Positions 38,650 through 57,731 of a stretch of 64,000 nucleotides of DNA are shown one piece after another. How positions within the stretch are numbered: position 1 is the first letter of the stretch; every line of letters starts with the position of its first letter. The position numbers were made by a program, and so were the translations under genes. The notes under the pieces were generated by a model, which did not search any database, had not been told where the DNA came from, and worked only from the letters and a program-made list of their open reading frames with translations. The stretch is from Caldimonas mangrovi (GTDB taxonomy: Bacteria > Pseudomonadota > Gammaproteobacteria > Burkholderiales > Burkholderiaceae_C), in assembly GCF_023721835.1 (NCBI RefSeq), contig NZ_JAMKFE010000001.1:186001-250000 (forward strand). Direction: 5' to 3'.

Positions 38650-38776
38650 TTTCTACAGTGCCGTGCGGCGTGAGGAATTGCCGCCGCGGCGGAAGTACCC
38701 GACCTTTTTGCTGCTGTTGCTGCTCTTGCGGGGAACCGAATGAGGTCTCATATGGTCCTTCTCCTCCGAGACCCCC

Positions 38777-48494: not shown

Positions 48495-49082
48495 TCACAG
48501 GCGTTTGGCCTCGAAGGCCTCGCCGATCGCGAAGAACGCGCCGCCGGCCACGTAGTGCAGCGTGCGCAGCGAAGGATCGGTGGTGTCGTCGTAGTGCCAG
48601 CGCCCCTGCGAGAACACACGCTCGTCGGCTTGCGCCGCGACCACCTCGCCGATGAACAAGTCGTAGCTGTGTTCGTTGTGGGGCTCCGGGATCACGCGGC
48701 ATTCGAGCCAGCCGACGCAGCCCTCGAGCAGCGGCGCATCGATGCGGCCGGCCGAGAAGGTCTGCAAGCCGTAGCGCGCGAACTTGTCGTCGCCAGCGCC
48801 TTGCATCAGCTCGCGGCCGGATGCGCTGCCGACGGCGAGTGTCGCGTCTGCCAGTGCGCGGCATGGGACGTTGAGCGCGAAATGCCCCGAGGCTTCGACC
48901 AGCTCGCGCGTCCAGGTCGACTTGTCGATGATGACGATCACCTTCGGCGGGTCGAAGTCCAGTGGCATCGACCAGGCCGCTGCCATCACGTTGCGGCGTC
49001 CGGCGTGTGCGCTCGTGACGAGCACCGTGGGGCCATGGTTGAGCAGTCGGTAGGCTTTGGGCAGTTCGACGGGCAGGCGCAT
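48495..49082 (-). CDS. Flavin reductase family protein (FMN-binding split barrel)
   Basis: A 195-residue protein. Typical segments: GPTVLVTSAHAGRRNVMAAAWSMPLDFDPPKVIVIIDKSTWTRELVEASGHFALNVP and GVGWLECRVIPEPH with HSYDLFIGEVVAAQADERVF. The family binds FMN and reduces it or uses it with NAD(P)H. It starts at ATG 49082, about 30 bases after the phosphatase stop, and the phosphofructokinase follows after 16 bases, so the three minus-strand genes may form one operon without an obvious common pathway. Confidence 0.87.
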   Translation of the reverse strand: MRLPVELPKAYRLLNHGPTVLVTSAHAGRRNVMAAAWSMPLDFDPPKVIVIIDKSTWTRELVEASGHFALNVPCRALADATLAVGSASGRELMQGAGDDKFARYGLQTFSAGRIDAPLLEGCVGWLECRVIPEPHNEHSYDLFIGEVVAAQADERVFSQGRWHYDDTTDPSLRTLHYVAGGAFFAIGEAFEAKRL

Positions 49083-49115: not shown

Positions 49116-49607
49116 TCAGAACCAGTTCACAAAGCCGGACTGGCTGGCGTTCTGAGGATTCGATCCGGCGTCGCGCACCCGCTGCAGCGCCTGCTCGGCC
49201 GTCAGGCCGAGCCGCTTCAGCACACACGCGGCAGCCGAGCCGGTGCGGCCCATGCCGGCGGCGCAATGCAGCATCGCCGAGTGACCGGCCTGCAGCTGGA
49301 CAGCCAGTCGTTCGATGCCGGTGCGAAAGCCGACCGGGTCGTCCGGCAGCCCGAAATTGCGCATCGGCAGGTGCATCCATTCGAAAGGAAGAGAGCCCTG
49401 CATCAGTGCGAGTTCATAGTCCGGTGACAGCGAAGCGAGTTCGTCGCGCGGGGTCAGGCAGACGACCAGGCCGAGGCGGGCTTGCGCGGCCTGAGCAAGG
49501 AAATGCGTCCACGGCTCGAAGCGACCGGGCATCGCCGACAGCCAAAGCCGGCCGCGAGCGGACGCAGGCAGGGCCACTGCGCGCAGGCTCACGGCACGGG
49601 TCTCCAT
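49116..49607 (-). CDS. Dual-specificity/tyrosine phosphatase-like protein
   Basis: A 163-residue protein with the CX5R loop HCAAGMGRTG (C115, R121), the signature of cysteine phosphatases, and a candidate general acid Asp at 89-90 (GLPDD). ARGRLWLSAMPGRFEPW at the N terminus is like the cyclin-dependent-kinase-inhibitor-3/KAP-like bacterial group. It should dephosphorylate protein tyrosine or another phosphoester. It starts at ATG 49607. The 156 bases from there to the cysE leader promoter contain no other gene. Confidence 0.85.
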   Translation of the reverse strand: METRAVSLRAVALPASARGRLWLSAMPGRFEPWTHFLAQAAQARLGLVVCLTPRDELASLSPDYELALMQGSLPFEWMHLPMRNFGLPDDPVGFRTGIERLAVQLQAGHSAMLHCAAGMGRTGSAAACVLKRLGLTAEQALQRVRDAGSNPQNASQSGFVNWF

Positions 49608-49763
49608 CGGCCCAGGTCGTCGAGCACCGGCAAGGCGGCCGTCAGCACGAGCAGCAGCGCGCGAGGCGGCGCAGGAAGTGAAGCGGCATGGCAGGGAAGG
49701 CGTTTCGTTGCAGAGGGATCGCCGATAGTGTGCACTGCCCGAAGGGCCATCGGCACAGGCCGT

Positions 49764-49793
49764 TTGACGGCCGTGGTCGCACCTTCTTACACT
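49764..49793 (+). promoter_or_regulatory. Sigma70-type promoter of the cysE leader transcript
   Basis: -35 TTGACG (49764-49769), 18-base spacer, -10 TACACT (49788-49793). Five and four of six bases match consensus, good for GC-rich DNA. The expected transcription start is the A at about 49800, which is the A of the leader-peptide ATG, so the leader message would have no 5' untranslated region. Confidence 0.65.
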
Positions 49794-49799
49794 GCCGCC

Positions 49800-49901
49800 A
49801 TGTCAGAACGCCTCCGCGCTTCCGTTTGGGCCACCGCCGCTGCCGGCGCGGCGGGCTGTTGTCGTTGCTGTCGATGCGCGCCGCGGGGGCTCGTCTCCTA
49901 G
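49800..49901 (+). CDS. Cysteine-rich leader peptide of the cysE attenuator
   Basis: A 33-codon frame, ATG at 49800 to TAG at 49899-49901, directly upstream of serine O-acetyltransferase. Codons 20-26 read Cys-Cys-Arg-Cys-Cys-Arg-Cys (49857-49877). Three of the five Cys codons are TGT and the Arg codons are CGT and CGA, choices that are uncommon in this GC-rich DNA and would favour ribosome pausing. An intrinsic terminator begins 23 bases after the stop. No Shine-Dalgarno precedes the ATG, consistent with leaderless translation from the promoter above. The peptide itself probably has no function; translating it would report cysteinyl-tRNA supply. The frame is directly visible; the regulatory role is inferred. 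Confidence 0.75.
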   Translation: MSERLRASVWATAAAGAAGCCRCCRCAPRGLVS

Positions 49902-49924
49902 CGAACGCCCCGCCGGCGTTCCCC

Positions 49925-49961
49925 AAGGCCGCAGCGCACATGCCCTGCGGCCTTTTTGTTT
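49925..49961 (+). terminator. Attenuator terminator between the Cys leader and cysE
   Basis: Perfect 10-base arms AAGGCCGCAG (49925-49934) and CTGCGGCCTT (49945-49954), 10-base loop, then TTTTT and GTTT. It ends 23 bases before the cysE ATG, so every transcript from the leader promoter must pass it. An upstream hairpin GAACGCC/GGCGTTC (49903-49909 with 49915-49921) follows the leader stop codon and could switch with GCGGGG/CCCCGC pairing (49883-49888 with 49908-49913). Confidence 0.88.
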
Positions 49962-49984
49962 CTCTACAGCATACGGAGCGGTCG

Positions 49985-50818
49985 ATGACTTCACTTTCGC
50001 TGGCACTGCCGGCCCATGCGGTGGTGCAGCCGGCCCGGTCGGACGACGGGATGCCCGGCGTCTGGCAGCGGGTGCACGAGGAGGCCCATGAACTCATGGC
50101 GACCGAGCCGTTGCTGCGCCGCCGCCTGCAACGCCTGCTCGATGCCGGCTCTGCCAACCGGATGCTCGCGCTGGTGCTGTCGCGCCGGCTCGCCGATGAC
50201 GATCTGCCGGAAGCCGGCCTGCACGCCCTGATGCTCGACGTGCTGGCCGACGATGCGGGCCTGGTCGAGATGGCTGCGCACGATCTGGCTGCGGTGACGA
50301 GCCGCGACCCGGCGTGCCCCGGCGCGCTGCACGTGCTGCTGAACCTGAAGGGTTTCCACGCGCTGCAGGCGCACCGCGTGGCTCACCGGCTGTGGCTGCA
50401 TGAGCGCCGCGACCTGGCGCATGCGCTGTCAGGCGCGGTCGCCGCGAGGCTGTCCATTGACATCCACCCGGCCGCGCGCATCGGCAGTGCGGTGATGCTC
50501 GATCATGCCAGCGGCATCGTGATCGGCGAGACCGCGGTGGTCGACGACGAGGTCTCGATCCTGCAGGGCGTCACGCTAGGAGGCACCGGCAAGGAGCATG
50601 GCGACCGGCATCCGAAGGTGCGCCGCGGCGTGATGATCGGGGCTGGCGCGAAGGTACTCGGGAACATCGAGATCGGTGCGATGAGCAAGGTGGCTGCCGG
50701 TAGCGTGGTGCTGGAGGCGGTGCCGCCACACTGCACGGTCGCCGGGGTGCCGGCCCGCGTGGTGCGTCGCCACGGCGAGGGCCATGTGCCGGCCTGTGAA
50801 ATGGATCAAGGGTTCTGA
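49985..50818 (+). CDS. cysE: Serine O-acetyltransferase
   Basis: A 277-residue CysE, close to the E. coli length. The N-terminal helical SATase domain (WQRVHEEAHELMATEPLLRRRLQRLL) precedes the left-handed beta-helix of hexapeptide repeats (about 150-260) with the catalytic His in MLDHASGIVIGET and the substrate loop GGTGKEHGDRHPKV. It makes O-acetylserine from serine and acetyl-CoA, the first committed step of cysteine synthesis. ATG at 49985 follows CGGAGCGG. The gene is preceded by a Cys-codon leader and a terminator. Enzyme-level feedback by cysteine is usual for the family; transcript-level attenuation would add a second control. Confidence 0.94.
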   Translation: MTSLSLALPAHAVVQPARSDDGMPGVWQRVHEEAHELMATEPLLRRRLQRLLDAGSANRMLALVLSRRLADDDLPEAGLHALMLDVLADDAGLVEMAAHDLAAVTSRDPACPGALHVLLNLKGFHALQAHRVAHRLWLHERRDLAHALSGAVAARLSIDIHPAARIGSAVMLDHASGIVIGETAVVDDEVSILQGVTLGGTGKEHGDRHPKVRRGVMIGAGAKVLGNIEIGAMSKVAAGSVVLEAVPPHCTVAGVPARVVRRHGEGHVPACEMDQGF

Positions 50819-50847
50819 GCGGCCAGCGCTCGCGGTCCGGCGATCGC

Positions 50848-51387
50848 TCAGACGGGCGCCAGCGCCCGGTGAGGCGCAGCGGGCAACTCGACGCCGATGG
50901 CGTCTCCGGGCACGACCGTACCGCTCTTCAGCACGACACCCATCACGCCCGCCTTGCGCACCAGGCGGCCGTGCTCATCGCGGCCCAGCACGGCCCCCAG
51001 GAGCCCGGCACGGAAGCGGTCGATCTGCACGCACGGATTGCGCAGGCCGGTGATCTCGACGAGAGCCGAGCTGCCGAGCTGCAGCCGGGTGCCGCTCGGC
51101 AGCGCCAGCAGGTCCAGGCCCCGCGTGCAAACGTTCTCGCCCAACTCTCCCGGGCCGACGGCATGGCCCATCGCGTGCAACTCGTCGAAAAGTTCGGCAT
51201 GCAACAGATGCACCTGGCGCAGGTTGGGCTGGGTCGGGTCCTTTGCGACGCGGGAACGGTGCCGCACCGTCACGCCGAGGTGGGCGTCGCCCTCGACGCC
51301 AAGACCGGTCAGCAACTCGATGCGCGGGAGGACGACCTTGCTGAATCGGTGTCGTGCACAGGCGCTGACCGAGAGGACGCTTGCCAT
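50848..51387 (-). CDS. MOSC domain-containing protein
   Basis: A 179-residue protein. The MOSC (molybdenum cofactor sulfurase C-terminal) pattern is clear: ASVLSVSACARHRFSK, GVEGDAHLGVTVRHRSRVAKDP, LHLLH-like VHLLHAELFDEL, LGENVCTRGLDLLALPSGTRLQLG and the conserved Cys in GLRNPCVQIDRF. MOSC proteins bind molybdenum cofactor or carry sulfane sulfur; small forms like YiiM reduce N-hydroxylated compounds. The start at ATG 51387 lies 10 bases after the RHH-like gene, so they are likely cotranscribed. Confidence 0.87.
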   Translation of the reverse strand: MASVLSVSACARHRFSKVVLPRIELLTGLGVEGDAHLGVTVRHRSRVAKDPTQPNLRQVHLLHAELFDELHAMGHAVGPGELGENVCTRGLDLLALPSGTRLQLGSSALVEITGLRNPCVQIDRFRAGLLGAVLGRDEHGRLVRKAGVMGVVLKSGTVVPGDAIGVELPAAPHRALAPV

Positions 51388-51397
51388 GCCGGCCTTT

Positions 51398-51673
51398 TCA
51401 GCTGTCCCGCTCGAGCGACCGGCCGAGCAGGTCGGCCACCAGGTCGTCCAGCTTCGTGCCTTGGGCTTCGGCCTGCTTGCGCAGTTGCGCGACGAGATCG
51501 CCAGGCAGCTTGACGGCAAAAGGCACCAGCCCCATGGCCTGCTCCCGGCGTCGCCGCTCACGCCGATCGGGCACCGCCGTCGACGCCGCGCCGAAGCGGC
51601 TCGGAACCCCCGCCTGCTTCATCTGGCCGGCGATTTTCAGGGCCTTGTTCTTTTCGAGGTCGGTTTTTTTCAT
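51398..51673 (-). CDS. Small basic protein with ribbon-helix-helix-like C terminus
   Basis: A 91-residue protein starting at ATG 51673. The N terminus is Lys-rich (MKKTDLEKNKALKIAGQMKQ), the middle has RRERRRREQ, and the C-terminal 40 residues (VPFAVKLPGDLVAQLRKQAEAQGTKLDDLVADLLGRSL) have the strand-helix-helix layout of RHH DNA-binding proteins. No toxin gene is adjacent. It may be a small regulator or nucleic-acid-binding protein. It is divergent from the AI-2E transporter gene with only 27 bases between starts. Confidence 0.7.
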   Translation of the reverse strand: MKKTDLEKNKALKIAGQMKQAGVPSRFGAASTAVPDRRERRRREQAMGLVPFAVKLPGDLVAQLRKQAEAQGTKLDDLVADLLGRSLERDS

Positions 51674-57252: not shown

Positions 57253-57731
57253 GCCTCGGTGCAGTTGGTGCACAGGCCCTTGATCTCGACCGAGCCGACG
57301 TGGAAGCCGGCGACGCTCTTGCGCAGCCGCTTGCCGAGCGCCGCGAAGGCTTCCTCGTCGTGCCACTCGGTGACCTGGCCGCACTGCGCGCACACCAGCA
57401 TCATCGCGTGGTGGTGGACATGCTCTCCATTGCAGACGACGAACGCATTGATGGCATCGACGCGATGGACGAGTTCCTGCTCGATCAGAAATTCGAGTGC
57501 CCGGTAGACGGTGGTAGGCGCCACGCGGCCATGGCGCGCACGCATGTCGTCCTGCAGGTCGTAAGCCTTCGCCGAGCCTTCGCGCAGCAGCAGCAGTTCC
57601 AGCACTTCGCGGCGCAAAGCCGTGAGCTGTGCCCCGCGGGCCCGGCAATGGGCGTCGGCGGCGGCAAGCTCGCGCGCCAGCGCATCGGAAGAACGCTGGG
57701 AAGCGGTGTTCGGGGCAGAAGCGGCAGTCAC
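57240..57731 (-). CDS. zur: Fur-family zinc uptake regulator
   Basis: A 163-residue Fur-family protein. N-terminal winged helix (LTALRREVLELLLLREGSAKAYDLQDDMRARHGRVAPTTVYRALEFL), then metal sites: HVHHHAMMLVCAQCGQVTEW with CxxC, and a second CTNC near the end; HEE/HDEE supplies further ligands. It is the last gene of the outer-membrane barrel-znuA-znuB cluster, so it is called Zur rather than Fur. GTG at 57731 is assumed as start; no strong ribosome-binding site is visible. It probably represses the operon through the palindrome at 60642-60655 when zinc is plentiful. Confidence 0.9.
   Translation of the reverse strand: MTAASAPNTASQRSSDALARELAAADAHCRARGAQLTALRREVLELLLLREGSAKAYDLQDDMRARHGRVAPTTVYRALEFLIEQELVHRVDAINAFVVCNGEHVHHHAMMLVCAQCGQVTEWHDEEAFAALGKRLRKSVAGFHVGSVEIKGLCTNCTEAQAG

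Follow-up and report, generated by a model that had tools for sequence, protein, structure and literature searches.

In Caldimonas mangrovi, a serine O-acetyltransferase gene (cysE) is preceded by a promoter, a short open reading frame with clustered cysteine codons and a terminator, an arrangement that is very probably a ribosome-mediated transcription attenuator sensing charged tRNA-Cys. The product of CysE, O-acetylserine, commits serine to cysteine, and the best-known control of CysE is feedback inhibition at the enzyme level. Our reading is drawn from the sequence, that is, from the parts, their order, their conservation, a copy of the terminator 3' arm within the leaders of the loci taken as a set, and a bias toward TGT codons. 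We hold the dependence of transcription attenuation on Cys codons with high confidence and the exact antiterminator with moderate confidence at best.

Under the proposed mechanism, RNA polymerase would start at or beside the leader ATG, as the promoter spacing suggests, with a ribosome following behind it. With Cys-tRNA in ample supply, the ribosome would reach the stop codon and sequester the leader segment behind the Cys codons, and the terminator would form. With Cys-tRNA in short supply, the ribosome would instead wait at the Cys codons, the segment behind them could pair with the terminator 5' arm, and once that arm is paired the terminator would fail and cysE would be transcribed.

The leader region in the window

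The locus lies in a stretch of 64,000 nucleotides, hereafter the window, and its features are collected in Table 1. An earlier note on this DNA had described a good promoter, a 33-codon frame with CCRCCRC at codons 20-26, a terminator with perfect 10-base arms and a T tract, and cysE downstream, and every one of these parts is present. The promoter is the only promoter-like site in 49500-50900, a region for which 50 shuffles give a mean of 0.0 sites (sd 0.1). Its -10 box ends 6 nt upstream of the leader ATG, so the transcript probably begins at or beside that codon, and there is no Shine-Dalgarno-like motif in the 20 nt 5' of it. In a locus of the same genus, L005, both promoter hexamers and their spacing are identical, and the Cys-rich C-terminal part of the leader is retained.

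Table 1. Features of the cysE leader region, in window coordinates
Feature	Position	Strand	Basis
Sigma-70-type promoter-like site TTGACG-18-TACACT	49764..49793	+	promoter scan
Leader ORF, 33 codons, probably leaderless	49800..49901	+	ORF and spacing analysis
Regulatory Cys codons TGT TGT CGT TGC TGT CGA TGC	49857..49877	+	sequence; shuffles
Candidate antiterminator strand	49875..49889	+	pairs with 49920-49933, first-Cys fold, -30.5 kcal/mol
Spacer hairpin, stop codon to terminator	49903..49921	+	fold, -10.3 kcal/mol
Intrinsic terminator, perfect 10-nt arms, loop 10, T tract	49925..49961	+	sequence, fold
cysE, serine O-acetyltransferase with SATase_N	49985..50818	+	Pfam, NCBIfam

The leader reads MSERLRASVWATAAAGAAGCCRCCRCAPRGLVS, with Cys at codons 20, 21, 23, 24 and 26. 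A stop-free cluster with at least five Cys in seven codons arose in one of 20000 shuffles of the 377-base intergenic stretch, read on its plus strand. Similar clusters nonetheless occur elsewhere in the window. Across its six frames, four further clusters of at least five Cys in seven codons are found, at 38709 and 40602 on the plus strand and at 57604 and 14908 on the minus strand. Besides, the exact degenerate CCRCCRC pattern occurs at three places in the genome versus one for a reversed control, the other two places being inside long ORFs. Because similar clusters occur elsewhere in this GC-rich window and genome, the Cys cluster alone is not enough, and the weight of the evidence is carried by position and conservation.

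The terminator consists of arms AAGGCCGCAG and CTGCGGCCTT around the loop, followed by TTTGTTT, with a folding energy of about -22 kcal/mol; the built-in terminator scan missed it because its loop limit is 8. A weaker hairpin stands at the spacer position in L005. At gathering scores, Rfam gave no riboregulator family in the window or in 22 other loci, the sole match among them being a tRNA in L149, and a relaxed scan of 49700-50000 returned three matches far below gathering (17.3/50, 16.2/70 and 14.7/41 bits).

The downstream gene is cysE, as had been claimed, its product matching Pfam SATase_N and Hexapep and scoring above the cut-off of NCBIfam cysE TIGR01172. It appears to stand alone, since its nearest neighbours are all minus-strand genes: upstream, a flavin reductase (48495-49082) followed by a DSP-type phosphatase (49116-49607), and downstream, a MOSC gene (50848-51561). 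No recognised plus-strand gene lies just 5' of the terminator, in line with the earlier statement that it has no other gene to end.

The window cysE is an extra copy: its genome, G000, also carries a shorter cysE (C50:168886), which encodes 251 aa, shows no SATase_N in the family scan and scores above the NCBIfam cut-offs for both cysE and EpsC. A second cysE match (E about 1e-36 to 1e-40) was found in five of the six attenuated-cysE genomes examined (G000, G129, G644, G665 and G698), the copy of G000 being the only one of the five that was family-scanned; in the sixth, the incomplete MAG G535, other cysE matches reach only near 1e-20. No Cys-rich short ORF lies within about 490 nt upstream of the match at these five second copies, and the Cys-rich frames found farther 5' are inside apparent upstream genes. 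Since the attenuator would govern an extra cysE in most of the genomes examined, the attenuated copy is probably a shortage-induced O-acetylserine reserve.

Conservation before cysE and a second target in cysS

The earlier note had proposed comparison with relatives as a check, and had named the lack of a conserved Cys-rich frame or terminator in close relatives as grounds against its reading. The part order is shared by 11 cysE loci, and the same-genus genome G129 keeps both elements: its locus L005 carries the promoter, a leader ending AGCCCRCRCGPRGRFSSW and a terminator before a 72% identical cysE. Nine further loci with the arrangement (L055, L056, L057, L059, L061, L063, L064, L065 and L067) were drawn from 80 genome-contig loci kept for the window CysE, with MSKPVVSTLICCRRRPEGLAD and MNRPDVSNLIIVACCRAQPEGLAD as typical leaders; by record name, seven of the nine belong to Oxalobacteraceae genera, one is a Burkholderiales MAG and one is given only as a Proteobacteria MAG. 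Across the 11 loci, four pairs of the terminator stem have changes on both sides.

In a CysE tree of 38 rows, all 11 attenuated CysE proteins fall in one clade of 16 (support 100/98), and the leader label requires three changes, a value as low being reached in none of 500 shuffles. Five members of this clade (L058, L060, L062, L006 and L007) are without a leader. Seven of nine genomes of the genus have no close CysE of the window kind, their best matches being at most 50% identical, and in L034 and L035, from two other species of the genus, CysE falls outside the clade and no such leader was seen.

A relaxed scan for an ORF plus terminator over 134 loci gave ten other matches, none directly 5' of a same-strand cysE; the closest of them, in L030, stops some 440 nt short of the match. 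These ten off-cysE matches, together with the CCRCCRC-like DNA elsewhere in the genome and window, are what a chance meeting of a GC-rich intergenic Cys cluster with an unrelated terminator would have in its favor, yet the conservation of the part order in 11 cysE loci and its presence before cysS make such a coincidence scarcely credible.

This second target emerged from a covariance model, R1, built from the 11 cysE leaders. Run over 399 genomes of the order, R1 gave matches in 37 places in 36 of them at an E value of 0.01 or less, and the 31 places inspected held four true Cys leaders: the window, the MAG of L059 (found again as L135), L137 and L138, the last two of which precede cysS. On the genome of the window the model gave eight matches at E up to 5, and in the seven besides the window no Cys leader was recognised. 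On the family, it matched three of 329 genomes at 1e-4, the window and G129 being true and L243 resembling a coding repeat; on the class, it matched seven of 274 genomes, the window match being the sole one of the seven to stand before a gene recognised as cysteine-related. R1 is weak for diverged cysS leaders.

The L138 CysS, which scores above the cut-off of TIGR00435 (cysS), served as a protein query over 300 genomes, from which 30 returned loci were inspected. Twelve of the CysS matches listed are 57-100% identical to it (lineage 2), the others 34-42%. A Cys-rich short frame precedes 11 of the 12 lineage-2 genes listed (all but L180), and nine of the 12 have both frame and terminator, the terminator being absent in L174, L175 and L180. 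Among the 18 ordinary cysS genes inspected, in contrast, three have a Cys-motif frame, one has a terminator and none has both (9/12 versus 0/18, Fisher p 1.5e-5). In the class sample, lineage-2 cysS occurs in two of 274 genomes, neither with a Cys leader. For cysS, a general rule that attenuation falls on extra copies was rejected: only three of the 12 genomes (G213, G324 and G425) have a second match at E up to 1e-50, and nine show the lineage-2 gene alone. With the part order conserved before cysE and found again before cysS, the earlier proposal of a candidate attenuator gains support.

The leaders of L174 and L175 end in CYCCCC and RCCC right before the stop codon, with no terminator found upstream of cysS, and may perhaps represent a translational version of the control. 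These two lineage-2 loci, lacking a terminator by the rule used, are one ground for supposing that the Cys leader acts through cysE translation or Rho access rather than through the intrinsic terminator. The available text of two sources adds to it: cysteine genes of M. smegmatis are said to be under translation attenuation (PMC13236596), and Seliverstov 2005, reporting Cys leaders that lack conserved terminators, pointed to Rho (PMC1262725). A hairpin of terminator type, followed by a T tract, is present in the window and 19 other loci, however, and the stem is kept by two-sided changes among the 11 cysE loci, which leaves this route unlikely.

The 20 loci with leader and terminator (11 cysE, 9 cysS) also formed the set for the analyses of start sites and codons. 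Under a rule requiring the best -10-like hexamer of the 80 nt upstream of the ATG to lie 5-9 nt from it, 10 of the 20 leaders look leaderless, versus 67 of 1242 long ATG frames in the loci (p 5e-8); four of the 20 regulated genes show this spacing at their own presumed start. The ten comprise seven of the nine cysS loci together with the window, L005 and L059. Of the remaining eight cysE loci, seven have their best -10 hexamer 46-70 nt upstream, and L067 has it at 21 nt. By the rule used, none of the 20 leaders has a Shine-Dalgarno-like motif.

Across the same loci, Cys codons are TGT over TGC by 47 to 23 in the leaders versus 16 to 77 in the downstream genes (p 8e-11). A rarer codon at the regulatory positions suits an attenuator, and RNA structure could be an alternative reason for the TGT preference. 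This bias operates at the codon level and thereby weighs against a leader peptide or terminated RNA acting in trans, or a Cys-rich peptide sensing metal or redox state, with control by Cys-tRNA secondary. Such an activity has a parallel in S. meliloti, where, in the text available, trans action is described for both an attenuator RNA and the leader peptide it encodes (PMC7298713). Apart from Cys, however, the peptides differ widely between loci, and both target genes serve cysteine supply and charging; we therefore regard a role of this sort as very improbable next to attenuation governed by Cys-tRNA.

Pairing between leader and terminator

With the first Cys codon of the window leader in the ribosomal A site, the segment 49875-49882 pairs in the fold with 49927-49933 inside the terminator 5' arm, the structure being closed by a helix of 49885-49889 and 49920-49924 that encloses the spacer hairpin. 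A ribosome placed at the stop codon, with RNA extending to the T tract, gives the terminator fold (-22.0 kcal/mol). At the later Cys codons the picture varies: a ribosome with the second or fourth in its A site leaves the 5' arm paired mainly to the spacer, one at the third leaves it nearly free, and one at the fifth leaves it paired with 49890-49899.

As one possible switch, the earlier note had offered the pairing of 49883-49888 with 49908-49913. This helix does form in the second- and fourth-Cys folds and partly in the third, and the free full-length leader also contains it in full, together with an intact terminator; since the two are compatible, it is not an antiterminator by itself. If anything, the folds suggest that it would hold the leader strand off the arm when no ribosome is present. 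The pairing of 49875-49882 with 49927-49933 is the better antiterminator candidate of the two, as far as the modelled structures go. At single-locus level, however, the window strand 49875-49889 pairs no better than shuffles, and the footprint model gives a 5'-arm sequestration of 0.66 when stalled, 0.62 for shuffles, 0.55 at the stop and 0.11 at the third Cys codon. The exact antiterminator in the window is thus uncertain; folding energies single out none, in the window least of all.

Pairing between the leader, taken from the first Cys codon to the stop, and the 5' arm of the same locus beats the shuffle mean at 19 of the 20 loci (mean z -1.32); many single loci are not significant, and L172 is worse than shuffles (z +1.63). 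When arms were swapped between loci, the summed longest stretch shared with the 3' arm fell from 112 to 96 (p 0.0001), and the control region, the leader before the Cys codons, gave p 0.51; related sequences in this test are not independent, and the control region has the same relatedness. The effect held for the cysS loci alone (p 0.0001) and for 11 thinned loci (p 0.0032), and it was not significant for the 11 cysE loci on their own (p 0.15), whose arms show hardly any variation. A swap test on duplex energy was weaker (p 0.03 for all 20, 0.04 for cysS and 0.16 for the thinned set). A copy of the terminator 3' arm within the leaders is hence supported for the loci as a set only, and is carried by cysS, as judged from these sequence comparisons.

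In the footprint model over the 20 loci, sequestration of the 5' arm is higher in the stalled than in the stop state (0.57 versus 0.29, p 0.0005), partly because more RNA is free when the ribosome is stalled. By the footprint partition function, stalled sequestration over these loci is no higher than with shuffled leaders (0.59, p 0.43). Since the stalled state does not beat shuffles, footprint folding was rejected as proof of a switch.

Related leaders and known attenuators

The enterobacterial trp, his and leu attenuators combine regulatory codons, alternative pairing and a terminator. They differ from the window in that its leader carries Cys codons and no Shine-Dalgarno-like motif, and in that they govern a biosynthetic operon whereas the window region precedes a single extra gene. 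Mycobacterial polycysteine short ORFs have reportedly been described by Canestrari 2020 as leaderless, according to the title; the promoter spacing of the window, one of 10 such loci among the 20 by the strict rule, would fit a start of this kind. The mycobacterial leaders and the window are alike in clustered Cys codons, a short frame and cysteine genes as targets. In the portions of the sources available, however, the mycobacterial leaders are without conserved terminators (PMC1262725) and the cysteine genes are under translation attenuation (PMC13236596), whereas the window leader is followed by an intrinsic terminator.

The nearest known relative, from the available text, is uORFC-8-2 of Rhodobacterales cysS, a short ORF with tandem Cys codons and a U-run terminator for which ribosome-mediated attenuation was proposed, and in which a stem holds the Cys codons (PMC8632094). 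Compared by description, the two are alike in tandem Cys codons, the terminator and the cysS target, which here belongs to other loci; uORFC-8-2, though, is from Alphaproteobacteria and, as described there, precedes cysS only, whereas the leaders described here precede cysE and a divergent cysS lineage in the order of the window. The S. meliloti trpL attenuator, in the text available, has a transcript that begins with the leader ATG, and a terminator (PMC7298713); a start at the leader ATG, probable in the window, and a terminator are the points of likeness, with Trp codons and a trpE(G) target there, and Cys codons and cysE in the window. Among the matches listed in open-licence PMC literature, we found no Cys attenuator before cysE or in Burkholderiales, and none with a second-copy target or on lineage-2 cysS. 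Within the literature searched, the kind is already known, and what is new is the target, the lineage and the setting.

The searches also returned short leaders upstream of a transporter gene, in L140, L145, L147, L148 and L159 as well as in L244-L247 and L249. Most of them have at least one Trp codon (for example MPSFIAIRPNHPLPCVIRMVWRRSVRGPESVSA), mostly with a GGCCnCAG-type terminator; the transporter is Pfam EamA in L145, L159 and L247, the three scanned, and was assigned by eye in the others. In L145, L147, L148 and L159, the -10 box lies 6-7 nt before the leader ATG. The L249 leader, MFNVIHSRQAVICATPKLMWCVRCCCPGKTI, has Trp and a CCC run; it comes from another family of the class, and the gene behind it was judged EamA-like by eye. 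Rfam gave no match in the six EamA-type leader loci scanned. From their sequences, these leaders are candidate Trp attenuators. Similar leaders (for example MNYPSSIPMLNIACRRAKRVWHLAIVPRAESG) with a terminator occur in L139, L141 and L150, the gene that follows in L141 and L150 being Pfam chorismate mutase type II and below the NCBIfam isochorismate lyase cut-offs. In L149 and L152, a short frame and terminator precede rtcB (Pfam RtcB in L149; by eye in L152).

A broader reading, for which we would put the chances slightly short of even, is that an order-wide family of leaderless-uORF attenuators exists in which the sensing codon is exchanged: Cys for an extra cysE and a separate cysS lineage, and possibly Trp for the chorismate mutase-like gene and EamA, the Cys members on cysE activating a reserve copy only in cysteine shortage. 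The layout proposed for such a family, put forward just as tentatively, would be TTGAC, about 17 nt, a -10 box, 6 or 7 nt, ATG, a short frame and a GGCCGCAG-type terminator.

If the attenuator reading is true, the cell would read the charging of Cys-tRNA directly and add a second CysE copy only when cysteine is scarce. With this device also present on a separate cysS lineage, one signal would link the synthesis of cysteine to its charging. As natural variants, the 20 loci would allow the antiterminator rule and the leaderless start to be tested directly.
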